This document shows positions 5,339 through 30,580 of a stretch of DNA of 34,433 nucleotides, piece after piece. Numbering within the stretch: the first letter of the stretch is position 1; the number at the start of each line of letters is the position of its first letter. The translations under genes and the position numbers were made by a program. The stretch comes from a virus, in IMG/VR virus record IMGVR_UViG_3300031841_002868, positions 1 through 34,433 of that record. The stretch is one strand, 5' to 3'. Below the pieces are notes generated by a model. The model saw only the letters and a list, made by a program, of their open reading frames with translations. It did not search any database and was not told the DNA's origin.

Positions 5339-5543
5339 CAGTTTAGAAATCGCTCATAGCGACCTGAATTGCGTGCTATATCCTGAGAAATCGCTTGCTG
5401 ATAGAATGAGTGATGAAGAATTAAACTCAATGTCTGATGAAGTGTTTAACAAGGTAGAGATTCACATAATCAGCTACCAAGAACGCATGAATACTCAATG
5501 TGAAGCAATTAAGAAGCATAATCAATTACACGGTGACAACTGA
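5262..5543 (+). CDS. Outer-membrane lipoprotein spanin subunit (Rz1-like), 93 aa
   Basis: The N-terminus is a lipoprotein signal peptide: basic residues, a hydrophobic core (12-22) and the lipobox L22-Q23-S24-C25, with C25 as lipidated residue. Glutamine at the second lipobox position is less common but tolerated in phage lipoproteins. The gene begins within the i-spanin frame and extends well past it, an overlapping rather than embedded pair. At 93 aa it is longer than lambda Rz1 and is not proline-rich. The stop overlaps the next ATG. Confidence 0.7.
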   Translation: MNRNELIKRLKIASLLVGVIALQSCSSLEIAHSDLNCVLYPEKSLADRMSDEELNSMSDEVFNKVEIHIISYQERMNTQCEAIKKHNQLHGDN

Positions 5544-6034
5544 TGGCACAAGGGTTGGTCAAAGATGACGTTTTAAAATACTTCAAGTATGATCAAGGGA
5601 AGCTTTTTTGGAGGCTGCCTAGAGGTCGAAAAGTTAAGGCTGGGGATAGGGCTGGAAGTGTTAACTCTATAGGATATAGAGTCATTGGATTGAATGGCGG
5701 TAGATACTTAGAGCATCGAATCATTTTTTTAATGTTTAACGGGATGGAGCCTGATTATATTGACCACATCAATCACGATCGCTCTGATAATAGAATTGAA
5801 AACCTTAGAGAATGCTCAAGATCTCAAAATAATTTCAACTCAATAAAGCCAAAAAACAACACATCTGGATGCAAAGGTGTTTATTGGGAAAAGAGAAGAA
5901 GCAGATGGCTTGCCAGAATTGAAAGCAAAGGAAAGCAGATTTTTATAGGAAGGTATAAAAATATAAAAGATGCTATCAGGGCGATCCATAAGGCTAGAGC
6001 GAAATACCATGGAGATTTCGCTTTTAATGGTTAA
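5543..6034 (+). CDS. HNH homing endonuclease with AP2-type DNA-binding domain, 163 aa
   Basis: HNH nuclease core at about residues 57-105 (LEHRIIFLMFNG, YIDHINHDRSDNRIENLREC, SQNNFNS), then an AP2-like domain at about 108-160 (SGCKGVYWEKRRSRWLARI, FIGRYKNIKDAIRA). This is the domain order of free-standing phage homing endonucleases, which cut intron-less or marker-less alleles and spread by repair. The gene fits exactly between the spanin and tail genes (TGATG overlap). Its first codons (MAQG) repeat the start of the following gene. A paralogue lies at 29509. Confidence 0.85.
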   Translation: MAQGLVKDDVLKYFKYDQGKLFWRLPRGRKVKAGDRAGSVNSIGYRVIGLNGGRYLEHRIIFLMFNGMEPDYIDHINHDRSDNRIENLRECSRSQNNFNSIKPKNNTSGCKGVYWEKRRSRWLARIESKGKQIFIGRYKNIKDAIRAIHKARAKYHGDFAFNG

Positions 6035-6504: not shown

Positions 6505-8175
6505 ATGGCTTTTGTCTCTGGGGCTACCACCAACCCATCAGCATCCTACACCCCCGCTAGCGGCACTAATACAATGCTTGTCTGGGTTACTGGTGCTACC
6601 GGTGTCGGTACGGCTACAGTTAGCGGTCAAGATTTTGGCGGGACTTCAATGTCCGAGATTGCCAACTCTGACCAATCAGTTGATTTAGCAGGGAGTGGCG
6701 ACCCGACTATTGCATCAGCCTTTTTATTGGCTCCAGGAACAACAAGTCAAACTTGCTCCCTAACATGGTCTAGCTCTCGCCTAAACGAAGGCGGCTATGC
6801 GTTCACAGTAGACGACGCGGGAAGCATAACCGGAACGTCAGGTGGCACCTATTCAGGCTCAGGAACAACCGAGCCAAGCTTAAGCTATGATGCAGAAGAT
6901 GGCGATACAGTTGTCTATGTGAGGCAACATTGTCGCGGTGGTGGGGCTATATCGTGGACTGCGCCAACTAATTTTACAGAAAGGTCAAATATTGCCTTAG
7001 TTACAAGCCCAGGCCGTCGCTCAATGGCGGTATGGACTCGAGACGTCACAAGCACCCTAACAAGCCAAACAGTTCAAGCAAGTGAGTCAGCGGATGGGGA
7101 CGGCGTTCACCATGTATTTGTTATTAAGAAATTCTCTGCTGATGTAACAGCCAATATGACACTAGAGACTATCTCAATCGATAGTTTTAACATGTTTGTA
7201 CTGGCCTCAAATATAGCATCCCTAATCAACACAGTAGACAATTATGAATTAGTTGGAAGCGGAGTCTCTAATTTTGGCGCGGGTGGCTCAAATACTTCTG
7301 ATGCCACCTATAGAGATGAAACAGACGAGCTAATTACTGTCAGGAATGGTAGTGCTACAGCTGATGTTTATGACTTAGGAAGTTACGGCACCGCAACAAA
7401 AACAATCACATTGAACTTTGACGGCTCAGATTGCGAAGGCATCTGTGATATGGGTGGTGGTGAGTTCGCTACCTGTTCAGAGGATGGCGGAAGATATCAA
7501 TTTAATATCTATGATTGGCCTAGCGACGTAGGAACAACTGCAACCAGCAAGCAAGAATTCACAATAGCGGCTAATGCTACTGACACTAACAGTGGTCCAG
7601 AAGGTATATGCTTCGACCGAGCTAACCAAATATTTTATATTGTTGGCGAAGGTGAGCAAAGTAGCACCGATAGAGAGTTCTTTAAGGTATTAAGGCCTGG
7701 GGTTCTAGGAAGGTTTGGTGATACTTCTACTAGTTATGCTTACAATGATGCCGATGATGGTGACGGCTGGTCGCTAGATGACTATATTTCACAGCCTTGG
7801 GACCCTGAAACAGCTTTTTCATCGTATGGCGCAACTGGTGCCGCGTTTGATTTGTCGAGTATTGACTTTGATCACGATTCTGAAAACGTTTTAATCTCAT
7901 CTCACACCGGCCAAAAGGTTTTGCAAGTCGATGTTACTGACGGTTCGGTGGTTGCTGAGGTAGATAATACAGACCTAACTCAAATGGAAGGGATAGCAAT
8001 ACTTCCAGACGGCAATCTAATGATGATGGGTGAAGCTGACGAGTATCAAATATTCGAATCAATTACCACAATTAACATGACTACTGCAACAATGACAATT
8101 CAAGGGTATAATATGACCATTGAAACCGGTGCATCTAGCATAGCAGCGTTAAGGCGCAGACATATGGGCTACTAA
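6505..8175 (+). CDS. Tail or adsorption protein with SdiA-regulated/YjiK-like beta-propeller, 556 aa
   Basis: Residues 1-215 form a Ser/Thr/Gly-rich beta domain of the phage adsorption type. Residues about 240-518 look like an SdiA-regulated/YjiK beta-propeller: repeated blocks SDATYRDETDELITV, CEGICDMGGGEFATCSE, GPEGICFDRANQIFYIVGE, FDHDSENVLISS and MEGIAILPDGNLMMMGE match that family's strand pattern and its EG signature. A 14-residue strand (NMTLETISIDSFNM, 217-230) recurs as NMTTATMTIQGYNM (524-537), so the propeller sits between two copies of one repeat. It has no clear ribosome-binding site, which implies coupling to the upstream gene one base away. Confidence 0.65.
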   Translation: MAFVSGATTNPSASYTPASGTNTMLVWVTGATGVGTATVSGQDFGGTSMSEIANSDQSVDLAGSGDPTIASAFLLAPGTTSQTCSLTWSSSRLNEGGYAFTVDDAGSITGTSGGTYSGSGTTEPSLSYDAEDGDTVVYVRQHCRGGGAISWTAPTNFTERSNIALVTSPGRRSMAVWTRDVTSTLTSQTVQASESADGDGVHHVFVIKKFSADVTANMTLETISIDSFNMFVLASNIASLINTVDNYELVGSGVSNFGAGGSNTSDATYRDETDELITVRNGSATADVYDLGSYGTATKTITLNFDGSDCEGICDMGGGEFATCSEDGGRYQFNIYDWPSDVGTTATSKQEFTIAANATDTNSGPEGICFDRANQIFYIVGEGEQSSTDREFFKVLRPGVLGRFGDTSTSYAYNDADDGDGWSLDDYISQPWDPETAFSSYGATGAAFDLSSIDFDHDSENVLISSHTGQKVLQVDVTDGSVVAEVDNTDLTQMEGIAILPDGNLMMMGEADEYQIFESITTINMTTATMTIQGYNMTIETGASSIAALRRRHMGY

Positions 8176-28221: not shown

Positions 28222-28425
28222 GTGACTAAAGAGGAAAAATTAGAGGCTAGATTGATCAACTTGGAAACCGCTTTTATAGCCTATTCAACGCTAACAATAA
28301 ACCTGTTGCCGGAAGACGCTCAGCAGTCTACATATAACATGATTAATGAGTTGTTCAATAGCGCGTTAACGCTAGGCAAAGACGAAAACCAGATTGATTT
28401 TATTAAGGAGGGTATAGAAGAATGA
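28222..28425 (+). CDS. Hypothetical helical protein, 67 aa (GTG start)
   Basis: GTG at 28222, eight bases after a perfect AAGGAGG (28207-28213). All-helical and acidic. Function unknown. Confidence 0.55.
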   Translation: MTKEEKLEARLINLETAFIAYSTLTINLLPEDAQQSTYNMINELFNSALTLGKDENQIDFIKEGIEE

Positions 28426-28658
28426 GTAATGTAATAGGGTTTCCGCAAACTGATGTTGAGTATATACTCAACAGTACTGGCGAAATTGTAGAGTCAATTA
28501 TCATCGATTTATCAAGACTAAAAAGCATCGAACTAAGAAGGGATGAGTCAGACGAAGTCAGAGGCCGCATAACTGGACTGTGTATTGCTTGGCTAGCTTT
28601 AGAGAATCCAGAGGTGTTAAATTTTGATGATGAATTAAATGAGGAGGATGGAGAGTGA
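28422..28658 (+). CDS. Hypothetical acidic protein, 78 aa
   Basis: ATGA overlap and a GGAGGG ribosome-binding site. Acidic C-terminus (DDELNEEDGE). No family recognised. Confidence 0.55.
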   Translation: MSNVIGFPQTDVEYILNSTGEIVESIIIDLSRLKSIELRRDESDEVRGRITGLCIAWLALENPEVLNFDDELNEEDGE

Positions 28659-28870
28659 GTGATAATTACAGCGCAATAGTTGATTTTATAACTAAAGGAT
28701 TGAAGGATATTGACCCGTTAAGCATGCGGCAAGAAATGACAATTGCAGGCTATCTGGCTATGTTTCAGGCTCAAATAGAGGCTAGAGGTCTTAATTCTGC
28801 GATTGGACTTATTGAAAACGGGCTTAATGAACTAAACAACAACCAAGAACAGGTTGATAAAATCAAATAA
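28655..28870 (+). CDS. Hypothetical helical protein, 71 aa (GTG start)
   Basis: GTG start in a four-base overlap behind GAGGAGG. Two amphipathic helices predicted by eye; no family recognised. It is the last gene before the 638-nt non-coding region, whose first 50 nt also hold an AAAGGAG that leads to no gene. Confidence 0.55.
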   Translation: MSDNYSAIVDFITKGLKDIDPLSMRQEMTIAGYLAMFQAQIEARGLNSAIGLIENGLNELNNNQEQVDKIK

Positions 28871-28886
28871 AGGAGTAAAATAGTAA

Positions 28887-28913
28887 TTGCTGATCGTACA
28901 GCGAAGTTATAGA
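28887..28913 (+). promoter_or_regulatory. Weak candidate promoter before RNA element A
   Basis: TTGCTG (28887-28892) and TATAGA (28908-28913) with 15-bp spacing, shorter than ideal. A start near 28920 would fall at the 5' edge of element A (28922). Readthrough from the upstream operon is an equal alternative. Confidence 0.25.
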
Positions 28914-28921
28914 AAGAAAGA

Positions 28922-29042
28922 CTAGTTCACGTATTACAATTTGATTTGAAGGCTTTATAGAGAAATCCTTAGCCCTTAGTTAAAAAACCGTGAACTGGCA
29001 CTTTGGGGTACGACTGAGGGTTTCTCTGTAAGGCTTTTTTTT
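28922..29042 (+). ncRNA. Structured RNA element A: 19-bp stem with interlocking pseudoknot and T-run
   Basis: Strand 28950-28968 pairs along its full 19 bases with 29018-29036 (four G-U pairs). CTAGTTCACG (28922-28931), upstream of the stem, pairs with CGTGAACTGG (28989-28998) inside its loop (one G-U), so the two helices interlock as a pseudoknot. Eight T (29035-29042) follow the stem, so the 3' half could also act as a terminator for the upstream operon. Function unknown. Confidence 0.55.
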
Positions 29043-29060
29043 CGCCTATCAGAAAAGCAA

Positions 29061-29161
29061 TAGACTGTTTAATAGAGAGATCTAGAAAAGCTATAAAAGG
29101 CGAGTTAGCTCACGAAAGCGAAAGCTGGTAAGTGTAATAGATCTTTCCCTTAAGCAGTCTA
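29061..29161 (+). ncRNA. Structured RNA element B: 12+10-bp hairpin
   Basis: Outer helix 29061-29072 with 29150-29161 (12 bp, one G-U), a 2x2 internal loop, then inner helix 29075-29084 with 29138-29147 (10 bp, one G-U). The 53-nt apical region has a possible small hairpin (AGCTA/TAGCT). 5' and 3' ends are brought side by side. It has the same architecture as element C, three bases downstream. Confidence 0.55.
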
Positions 29162-29164
29162 AAT

Positions 29165-29268
29165 AGTGTTTATATGTGGTAGATCTGAATCATCCAGCTG
29201 GTTTGAATGTATCGTCCGGATCGGTGCAGGAGTGTCGAAACTCTTTAGATCTCCTTCATATAAACACT
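29165..29268 (+). ncRNA. Structured RNA element C: perfect 12-bp outer helix and AGATCT inner helix
   Basis: AGTGTTTATATG (29165-29176) pairs perfectly with CATATAAACACT (29257-29268). Inside, GG plus AGATCT (29181-29186) pairs with AGATCT (29247-29252) plus CC, with one bulged T. The apical region contains small hairpins including GAGT/ACTC around GTCGAA. Ends are juxtaposed as in B. Not a tRNA: no seven-bp acceptor and T-arm arrangement with a seven-base loop. Confidence 0.55.
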
Positions 29269-29343
29269 TCCTCTCAATCAGCCATTTTTAGCTAGTTTAT
29301 CGGTTAGCAAATGTTCGGCTAGTTAGTTATGTAAAACTCAAAC

Positions 29344-29403
29344 TATTAACGTAGGCACATGTTAGATCACTTGACGTTAATAATAGAAGAGAAAAACAAG
29401 TGG
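29344..29403 (+). ncRNA. H-type pseudoknot D
   Basis: Stem TATTAACGT (29344-29352) with ACGTTAATA (29374-29382) closes a 21-nt loop. The last six loop bases CACTTG (29368-29373) pair with CAAGTG (29397-29402), extendable by one G-U pair. Element E repeats the same loop length and strand order. Confidence 0.45.
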
Positions 29404-29435
29404 CACTATAAATCTCGGCGATGATCGGATGGGGC

Positions 29436-29493
29436 TAGTAGTATGCAATACTCAATATTTTGGGTAAGTGCATACTATTATCTGACGACTTAC
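29436..29493 (+). ncRNA. H-type pseudoknot E upstream of the HNH gene
   Basis: Stem TAGTAGTATGCA (29436-29447) with TGCATACTATTA (29469-29480), 12 bp with one G-U, closes a 21-nt loop. The last five loop bases GTAAG (29464-29468) pair with CTTAC (29489-29493). It ends 15 bases before the HNH start codon, so it may be part of that gene's leader and could influence its translation. Confidence 0.45.
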
Positions 29494-29508
29494 AAACAGG
29501 GCTAGATT

Positions 29509-29991
29509 ATGAAAGATATAACACAGGATTTAGTTAAAGAATTGTTTAATTATAGGTGTGGAGTTTTGTATTGGAAATCTAACCACCCCAAGAGGCCGAA
29601 TAAAAAAGCTGGATACGTAGATAAAAGAGGCTATACAAAAATCATAGTAGGAGGCAAGCATCAGTACGCTCATAGGCTTATATTTCTGTATCATGAAGGA
29701 TATTTGCCGAAATATGTAGATCATATATCTGGCAGAGATAAAGGAGATCGGATAGGTAATTTACGAGAGTGCAGCTCATCACAAAACAACTTTAACAGCA
29801 GTATGGGCGCACGTAACAAGTCAGGAGTGAAAGGGGTTCACTGGTGTAAAACCATAAAAAGATGGAGGGCGCAAATAAGAGTAAAAGGAAAACAAATAAG
29901 CGTGGGAAGCTTCTCAAGCCTGAGTGAGGCAGAAAAGGAAATGAAAAAGGCGCGACAAAGATACCATGGCGAATTTGCCAACCACGGTTAG
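29509..29991 (+). CDS. HNH homing endonuclease with AP2-type DNA-binding domain, 160 aa (second copy)
   Basis: Clear paralogue of the protein at 5543: HNH core with AHRLIFLYHEG, YVDHISGRDKGDRIGNLREC, SQNNFNS (about 54-102) and AP2-like domain SGVKGVHWCKTIKRWRAQI, ISVGSFSSLSEAEK (about 105-157). Both end YHG-x-FA-x-x-G. Likely an independent free-standing homing endonuclease inserted between the structured RNA region and the RNA-ligase-like gene. It has an AGGG ribosome-binding site. Which site it cuts is unknown. Confidence 0.85.
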   Translation: MKDITQDLVKELFNYRCGVLYWKSNHPKRPNKKAGYVDKRGYTKIIVGGKHQYAHRLIFLYHEGYLPKYVDHISGRDKGDRIGNLRECSSSQNNFNSSMGARNKSGVKGVHWCKTIKRWRAQIRVKGKQISVGSFSSLSEAEKEMKKARQRYHGEFANHG

Positions 29992-30022: not shown

Positions 30023-30580
30023 ATGATAAAACTTAAAACCTTATTTAAAAAAGATAGCAATCATAAAGCGACTAGCGAGATCCAATGCTTGTGGGTTGCC
30101 AATGATGGCGTGAAGGCGTATATAAAGCGGGATGGTACAGCCTGCATGATTAAAAAAGGTGTTTTATATAAGCGCTACGATGCAAAAATCAACAAAAAAA
30201 CAGGTAAAAGAAAAACGCCTCCTATTGGAGCTATAAGTTGCTGCCCTCCCGATAATGTTACTGGACATTGGCCGCACTGGGTTAAATGCGGCGAAGGGGA
30301 CAAATACCACGCTGAGGCTTTTAATTGCCTACTTGATAAGGCTGATGGAACTTATGAGTTATGCGGGCCGAAAATTAACGGGAACAACGAAAAGCTGACA
30401 ACTCATGTATTAATTAACCATAAAAGCGAGCCAATTAATCAACCGCTTGTTATTTCGTATAGCGGATTTAGTGGGTTTTTGTCCGAACTAAATCATGAGG
30501 GCGTTGTTTTTTATGGACCCAATAATGAAATGTGTAAGTTGAGGCGTGTCGACTTTGGTTTTAGTTGGCCGAACGAATAA
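30023..30580 (+). CDS. RNA ligase-like nucleotidyltransferase (DUF5565-type), 185 aa
   Basis: ATP-dependent ligase family fold: motif I K35-R-D37-G38 (IKRDGTAC) with K35 as the likely adenylated lysine, a KRYDAK segment (50-55), motif III-like GTYELCGPKING (109-120), motif IV-like HEGVVFY (158-164) and a motif V-like KLRR (172-175). The TGHWPHW and PPDNVTG segments are ones I recall from the small phage RNA ligases of the DUF5565 type. No kinase or phosphatase partner lies in the window. GGAG precedes the start. Typical role would be sealing broken RNA such as cleaved tRNA; its substrate here is unknown. Confidence 0.7.
   Translation: MIKLKTLFKKDSNHKATSEIQCLWVANDGVKAYIKRDGTACMIKKGVLYKRYDAKINKKTGKRKTPPIGAISCCPPDNVTGHWPHWVKCGEGDKYHAEAFNCLLDKADGTYELCGPKINGNNEKLTTHVLINHKSEPINQPLVISYSGFSGFLSELNHEGVVFYGPNNEMCKLRRVDFGFSWPNE

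Follow-up and report, generated by a model that had tools for sequence, protein, structure and literature searches.

Which kind of element fills the longest non-coding gap of a phage genome, if it is none of the familiar RNA elements? The stretch of DNA analysed here (34,433 nt, called the window in the following) is a 34 kb IMG/VR virus record encoding a P22-like portal and related head genes. For one block of it the original prediction had claimed a notable gap of 638 nt, no convincing gene, dense RNA structure and at least five pairings. Defined as sequence not covered by plus-strand open reading frames (ORFs) of at least 50 aa, the gap indeed measures exactly 638 nt and is the longest uncovered stretch in the window, the next being 208 nt; the longest ORF within it is 41 aa. 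Its MFE is -180.9 as compared to -150.7 +/- 5.1 in 20 dinucleotide shuffles (z -5.9), and inverted-repeat arms of 25, 24, 24, 12 and 9 nt were found (Table 1). Two pairs of related elements had been claimed as well, for which support was not found, only short repeats of 14, 12, 10 and 8 nt being present. Two of the three interlocking pseudoknots that had been proposed, PK1 and PK2, are supported by covariation. The third candidate, CGCCT at 29043 with AGGCG at 29098, was rejected, as it is not kept in the IMG/VR relative G023, which shares the 5' strand and carries another hairpin content. Apart from the block, a perfect 20-nt palindrome, possibly a protein-binding site, lies at 28454-28473 inside a small gene (28422-28658).

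Table 1. Coordinates of the block, its parts and its neighbour genes in the window
Feature	Position	Strand	Remarks
Candidate sigma70-type promoter TTGATA-16-TAAAAT	28854-28881	+	Just upstream of the RNA; 10/12 consensus bases
Non-coding block	28871-29508	+	638 nt; HNH/AP2 gene directly 3'
Inverted-repeat arms (25, 24, 24, 12, 9 nt)	29165/29244, 29061/29138, 28949/29014, 29436/29469, 29344/29374		
5' domain ("unit 1"): P1, PK1, PK2, P3, T8	28885-29042	+	Six-variant covariation; 18-variant permutation; layout in 29/31 gaps
P1 hairpin GCTG/CAGC	28889-28902	+	Loop strand TCGTAC (28894-28899) pairs in PK1
PK2 5' strand CTAGTTCACG	28922-28931	+	Partner 28989-28998; 54/54 cells paired, six variants
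P3 5' strand	28950-28972	+	Partner 29014-29036
PK2 3' strand CGTGAACTGG	28989-28998	+	Partner 28922-28931
PK1 3' strand GTACGA	29008-29013	+	36/36 cells paired, six variants
P3 3' strand, then T8; terminator-like	29014-29042	+	T5-T8 after P3 in 29/31 gaps
Hairpin frame H2	29061-29161	+	Arms 29061-29077 and 29147-29161; 67-nt hairpin content 29078-29144
Hairpin frame H3	29164-29268	+	Arms 29164-29179 and 29253-29268; cloverleaf-like content 29180-29252
3' part with two hairpins (29344-29382, 29436-29480)	29278-29508	+	Not homologous to the 3' domain of relatives
HNH and AP2 endonuclease gene, homing type	29509-29991	+	PF13392, PF00847 (AP2 slightly below cut-off)
RNA-ligase-family gene	30023-30580		After the HNH/AP2 gene; 185 aa, KxDG motif (KRDG)

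That the block is neither a tRNA, a group I or II intron nor a CRISPR array, as had been stated, was borne out. In Rfam it has no match at the gathering score, and what is listed at E up to 10 is at chance level; ARAGORN detected no tRNA in it. The identities tmRNA and CRISPR were rejected on the basis of Rfam, ARAGORN and repeat searches. Concerning group I and II introns, the core helices are unmatched in Rfam at E up to 10 and the upstream gene has its own stop before the block. The Rfam covariance models of GOLLD and ROOL gave no match at the gathering score and, on the block, none at E up to 10. Within the literature that could be searched, a description of this RNA was not found.

A direct blastn of the whole block against phages and a search with an exact pattern from its 5' edge yielded nothing, and a second conserved pattern retrieved, besides known loci, coding false positives only. 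The upstream gene has one relative in IMG/VR (L018), with a DNA identity of 98% up to 28894 that then collapses. In the same place, L018 carries a homologous 5' domain, retained chiefly as a layout: a GCTG/CAGC hairpin whose loop pairs downstream, then a second upstream strand with its pairing partner in an inner loop, and a long stem with a T run and CGCC behind it. Further copies were collected with a pattern from the stem end, and more via the surrounding accessory genes. The pattern used for sequence variants A to C required a T run; variants D, E and F were found via proteins and the isolates via the 3' domain, so that the T run in these is independent of the search. The 3' part of L166 matches the Pseudoalteromonas phages HS1 and HS5, and the gap of HS5 contains a seventh variant, in which PK1 is a perfect helix of 7 bp and PK2 has 10 bp, and which lacks a T run. 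Using HS5, NF and 1.085 as blastn queries, 30, 30 and 41 overlapping phage records were matched, all of them Vibrio or Pseudoalteromonas phages and mostly in unannotated gaps. No plasmid matched the RNA, the block is absent from the examined sequence of major-capsid relatives and of the HNH relative, and two genome scans addressing the host revealed no relative. Two further observations concern copy number. Vibrio phage NF (NC_070773) carries two different RNA copies (L178 and L192) in separate places and on opposite strands, and IMGVR_UViG_3300032087_003094 (G022, 74480 b) contains two versions of the module about 35 kb apart, with blocks near 38180 and 73150, and looks like two related genomes joined.

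The 5' domain covers about the first 160 nt of the block; besides a small hairpin it contains the two pseudoknots and a stem of 20 bp with a T run at its end. Of 31 gaps examined, 29 show a -10 of TATAAT type, a 5' domain measuring 111-153 nt, a P3 of -20.9 to -34.1 kcal/mol and T5-T8, a survey in which each gap is represented by its best T run, so that weak cases are possibly flattered. The score of the window promoter alone is not above chance for the region; in relatives, a TATAAT-type -10 is found at the equivalent position. In the IMG/VR copies whose upstream edge is included, the RNA follows immediately on such a promoter, which is TTGATA-16-TAAAAT in the window and L018 and TAGACA-16-TATAAT in G022, G023, G024, L166, L167 and L170. 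The stem P3 is followed directly by the T run in 29/31 copies, HS5 being an exception. The loop of P3 is long (about 35-60 nt) and structured, and a scan for standard terminators with short loops (3-8 nt) does not list P3 and T8 of the window.

Evidence for the two pseudoknots comes from six sequence variants of the 5' domain (A to F), in which helices were assigned by hand because MAFFT gave wrong alignments of the hypervariable 5' parts; from variant E, a single bulged C was omitted. PK1, in which the P1 loop pairs with the strand preceding the 3' half of P3, shows standard pairs in 36/36 cells, and PK2 in 54/54. Upon reassignment of the 3' strands among the variants, the true pairing alone among 720 reaches full pairing, and this holds for each of PK1 and PK2. 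Double compensatory changes occur in 6/6 columns of PK1 and 8/9 columns of PK2. When the test is extended to 18 distinct variants, matching each 5' segment to the P3 interior of its own variant does better than 20,000 of 20,000 permutations, with several true pairs ranking low within their row or column of the matrix; 1.074, 1.003 and 1.115 are exceptions, with the second pseudoknot arranged differently. The pseudoknot strands are specific to each variant and pair poorly across variants. G-U pairs outnumber A-C pairs by 27 to 2 on the plus strand, which argues for the plus strand as the RNA. A descriptor composed of P1, PK1, P3 and the T run had 30 matches in 3.7 Mb of DNA, 28 with PK2 and two without; all 28 are copies of known sites, and dinucleotide-shuffled DNA gave 0. 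A covariance model built without pseudoknots from nine relatives (R1) is too weak and did not find the window copy, whose link to the relatives runs through the intermediate variants B, C, D, E and F. Of the tests that had been suggested, the Rfam search and the covariation in homologues thus favour the prediction of an unrecognised structured RNA on the plus strand.

Downstream of the 5' domain lies a slot with variable contents. Frame H2 is near-identical in the window, G023 and L167, and in the latter two its content is either a tRNA-Tyr carrying a 92-nt insertion or a different hairpin; frame H3 is common to all three. The H3 content of the window has a cloverleaf as its MFE structure but is not a tRNA, since RF00005 is unmatched at E up to 10 (29176-29260) and ARAGORN reports none. 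G023 agrees with the window in every one of 189 nt that span the 5' domain and the first frame arm. Its H2 encloses a tRNA-Tyr(GUA) whose anticodon loop contains the 92-nt insertion, and two tRNA-Arg lie in another frame; calls of this insertion type numbered 0 in 1.25 Mb of shuffled DNA. Frame H3 of L167 contains a tRNA-Leu-like gene (5563-5680; RF00005, 39.9 bits). The recurrence of the same frames with other contents in the window, G023 and L167 indicates that frames are conserved and contents swapped. Altogether, 6/31 copies have tRNA genes inside the gap, behind the T run or in frames or slot, and the window copy has none. They directly follow the T run in VaM_H2 (Met, Arg), Seahorse (Trp, Arg, Gly) and 1.085 and 1.134 (both Trp, Arg). 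As these tRNAs begin few nt past the T run and no promoter is seen in between, read-through seems to be needed for their expression. Two of the tRNA genes encountered are unusual in themselves. The tRNA-Tyr(GUA) of L153 (IMGVR_UViG_3300031841_002721, 7316-7482, minus strand) bears a 92-nt insertion in the anticodon loop that is too short for a usual group I intron and the removal of which gives a normal tRNA-Tyr, and the tRNA-Leu-like gene of L167 encodes its CCA and has an unusually large anticodon loop as well as a long variable arm.

The 3' part differs between copies. Many relatives, including most of the gaps other than those with tRNA genes, share a covarying 3' domain, here called Z. 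Of its 29 predicted pairs, 19 show double compensatory changes. The conserved Z motifs are absent from the window block, the last 230 nt of which (29278-29511) are as a whole not significantly structured (z -1.6). In G023, G024, L167 and some isolates, too, Z is replaced by another 3' part.

The gene that follows the RNA varies likewise. It encodes an HNH protein in the window, GIY-YIG/T5orf172 proteins in G024 (PF13455/PF10544), L167 and the Vibrio phages 1.016 and 1.265 (T5orf172 annotated in these two phages), DNA methylases in HS5, L3 and 1.122, and others elsewhere; a homing endonuclease is often absent beside the RNA copies. A second HNH/AP2 endonuclease gene, related to the neighbour of the block, is located at 5543-6034 of the window. 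The prediction had placed the block beside an RNA-ligase-family gene. Such a gene is nearby; the direct neighbour is the HNH/AP2 gene. The stress laid on the ligase is unsupported, for 0/7 other block-bearing records carry one, and the descriptor including PK2 had 0 matches in 16 other phage loci with this ligase family. Judged from these sequences, the RNA ligase does not belong to the system. Its domain is related to RLIG1 and similar to proteins of mycobacteriophages and a Cellulophaga phage.

We therefore read the block, with a probability of about 0.7, as the copy that this phage has of a large RNA belonging to a new class of phage RNAs. As the comparison of copies shows, the layout of the class is an own sigma70-type promoter, a 5' domain (110-155 nt) with two pseudoknots, a long stem and a T run, a slot, a 3' part and an accessory gene. 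The slot may contain tRNA genes, or hairpins of tRNA size, in long stem frames, the 3' part is exchangeable, and the accessory gene is often a predicted homing endonuclease or DNA methylase. The question whether the block is one large RNA or a cluster of small ones is herewith partly answered: a conserved promoter-proximal 5' domain is combined with a slot, which takes up tRNAs or hairpins of their size, and with a 3' part that can be exchanged.

The class is absent from Rfam and apparently undescribed, and it appears most akin to the large phage RNAs that are linked to tRNAs. GOLLD and ROOL are phage RNAs often found near tRNA islands; the linker of GOLLD sometimes contains tRNAs, and ROOL, from phages and prophages, has several pseudoknots (PMC12286853). 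With GOLLD the class shares large size, phage origin, tRNA association and a variable, sometimes tRNA-bearing linker, and with ROOL the occurrence of several pseudoknots in a phage RNA in the vicinity of tRNAs (PMC12286853). GOLLD is, however, often longer than 800 nt and conserved in its 3' region, whereas in the class described here the 5' domain is constant and flanked by promoter and T run; as compared to ROOL, its two pseudoknots are hypervariable in sequence among close relatives. In phage T6, the homing endonuclease SegB amplifies the tRNA-Tyr region and thereby defeats Septu, which resembles the present loci in that phage tRNA genes adjoin a homing endonuclease (PMC13096335). A pseudoknotted leader is not reported in the accessible part of that source, and the endonuclease is here HNH or GIY-YIG and often absent. 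Attenuators and terminator-gating riboswitches are alike in having a structured leader after a promoter, a long stem with a T run and alternative pairings. They differ in that the P3 loop is long and structured here, a conserved ligand core is absent and the pairing strands vary freely; gating is in our case only proposed.

As to function, we tentatively propose that the 5' domain is a conditional-terminator leader which gates a mobile tRNA slot. The strands of the pseudoknots would be transcribed first and could pair before the last strand of P3 exists. Once P3 has formed, transcription would presumably stop at the T run. A pseudoknotted form that persists would delay P3 and let the polymerase read into the slot, providing tRNAs or tRNA-like RNAs for the phage. 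Swapping of contents between phages would be accounted for by the endonuclease next to the RNA and by the repeated frames. For variants C and D, at most 2.3 kcal/mol separate the fold with PK1 and PK2 from the P3 fold; for A, B, E and F, the P3 fold is favoured over the nested fold with PK1 and PK2 by 10-30 kcal/mol. A balanced switch is hence not general, and pseudoknots and P3 may coexist. Also speaking against our reading of the block as a whole are the missing T run of HS5, the slot of the window without recognisable tRNAs, the lack of the Z domain in the window, the window copy not being found with the covariance model and the window promoter not scoring above chance by itself.

The main alternative is a third ornate RNA resembling GOLLD and ROOL, the 5' and 3' domains of which would fold together into an RNA-only particle or scaffold. 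The tRNAs would then ride in a variable linker, and the T run would merely be structural or part of a processing site, which would suit HS5. Two covarying domains do flank a variable linker, sometimes with tRNAs in it, just as GOLLD and ROOL occur near tRNA islands and GOLLD has linker tRNAs (PMC12286853). We nevertheless regard this explanation as somewhat less probable: Rfam has no match, a T run after P3 in 29/31 copies is odd for the middle of one RNA, and the 3' domain is replaced in the window, G023, G024, L167 and some isolates, so that 5' and 3' domains are not obligate partners.

Slightly less probable again is that the 5' domain is a free-standing small RNA gene of 110-155 nt acting in trans, for example as an anti-defence decoy or a superinfection-type determinant, with the downstream RNAs as separate genes of an accessory island. 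Promoter and terminator-like end in nearly all copies and the occurrence of the 5' domain with many different downstream elements would fit such a gene. Its variant-specific strands with their poor cross-pairing are what is expected of specificity determinants, but in the phages' own DNA no trans targets of the variable strands beyond chance were found, HS5 has no T run, and the tRNAs lie few nt behind the T run with no intervening promoter seen. That the pairings are remnants of mobile DNA, i.e. recombination or homing sites and not RNA, is very improbable despite the mosaic structure and the adjoining HNH, GIY-YIG or methylase genes, given the strand-specific G-U pairs, the pseudoknot covariation, which palindromic DNA sites do not need, and the promoter at the 5' edge of the block.

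To our knowledge, large structured phage RNAs are few and their functions are not known. The RNA described here lies unannotated in dozens of isolated phages, several of them with culturable hosts, and its transcription, structure and deletion phenotypes are directly testable. Through it, phage tRNA genes and homing endonucleases are connected with a double-pseudoknot domain that is strongly constrained in structure and little in sequence. Possibly it is, next to GOLLD and ROOL, a third kind of large phage RNA linked to tRNAs, widespread among Vibrio and Pseudoalteromonas phages of the sea, which either gates or physically carries tRNA or tRNA-like contents against tRNA-targeting host defences and in which hypervariable, yet strictly self-complementary pseudoknots mark compatibility types. 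The RNA bears on the open questions why phages keep tRNAs and what GOLLD- and ROOL-like RNAs do.
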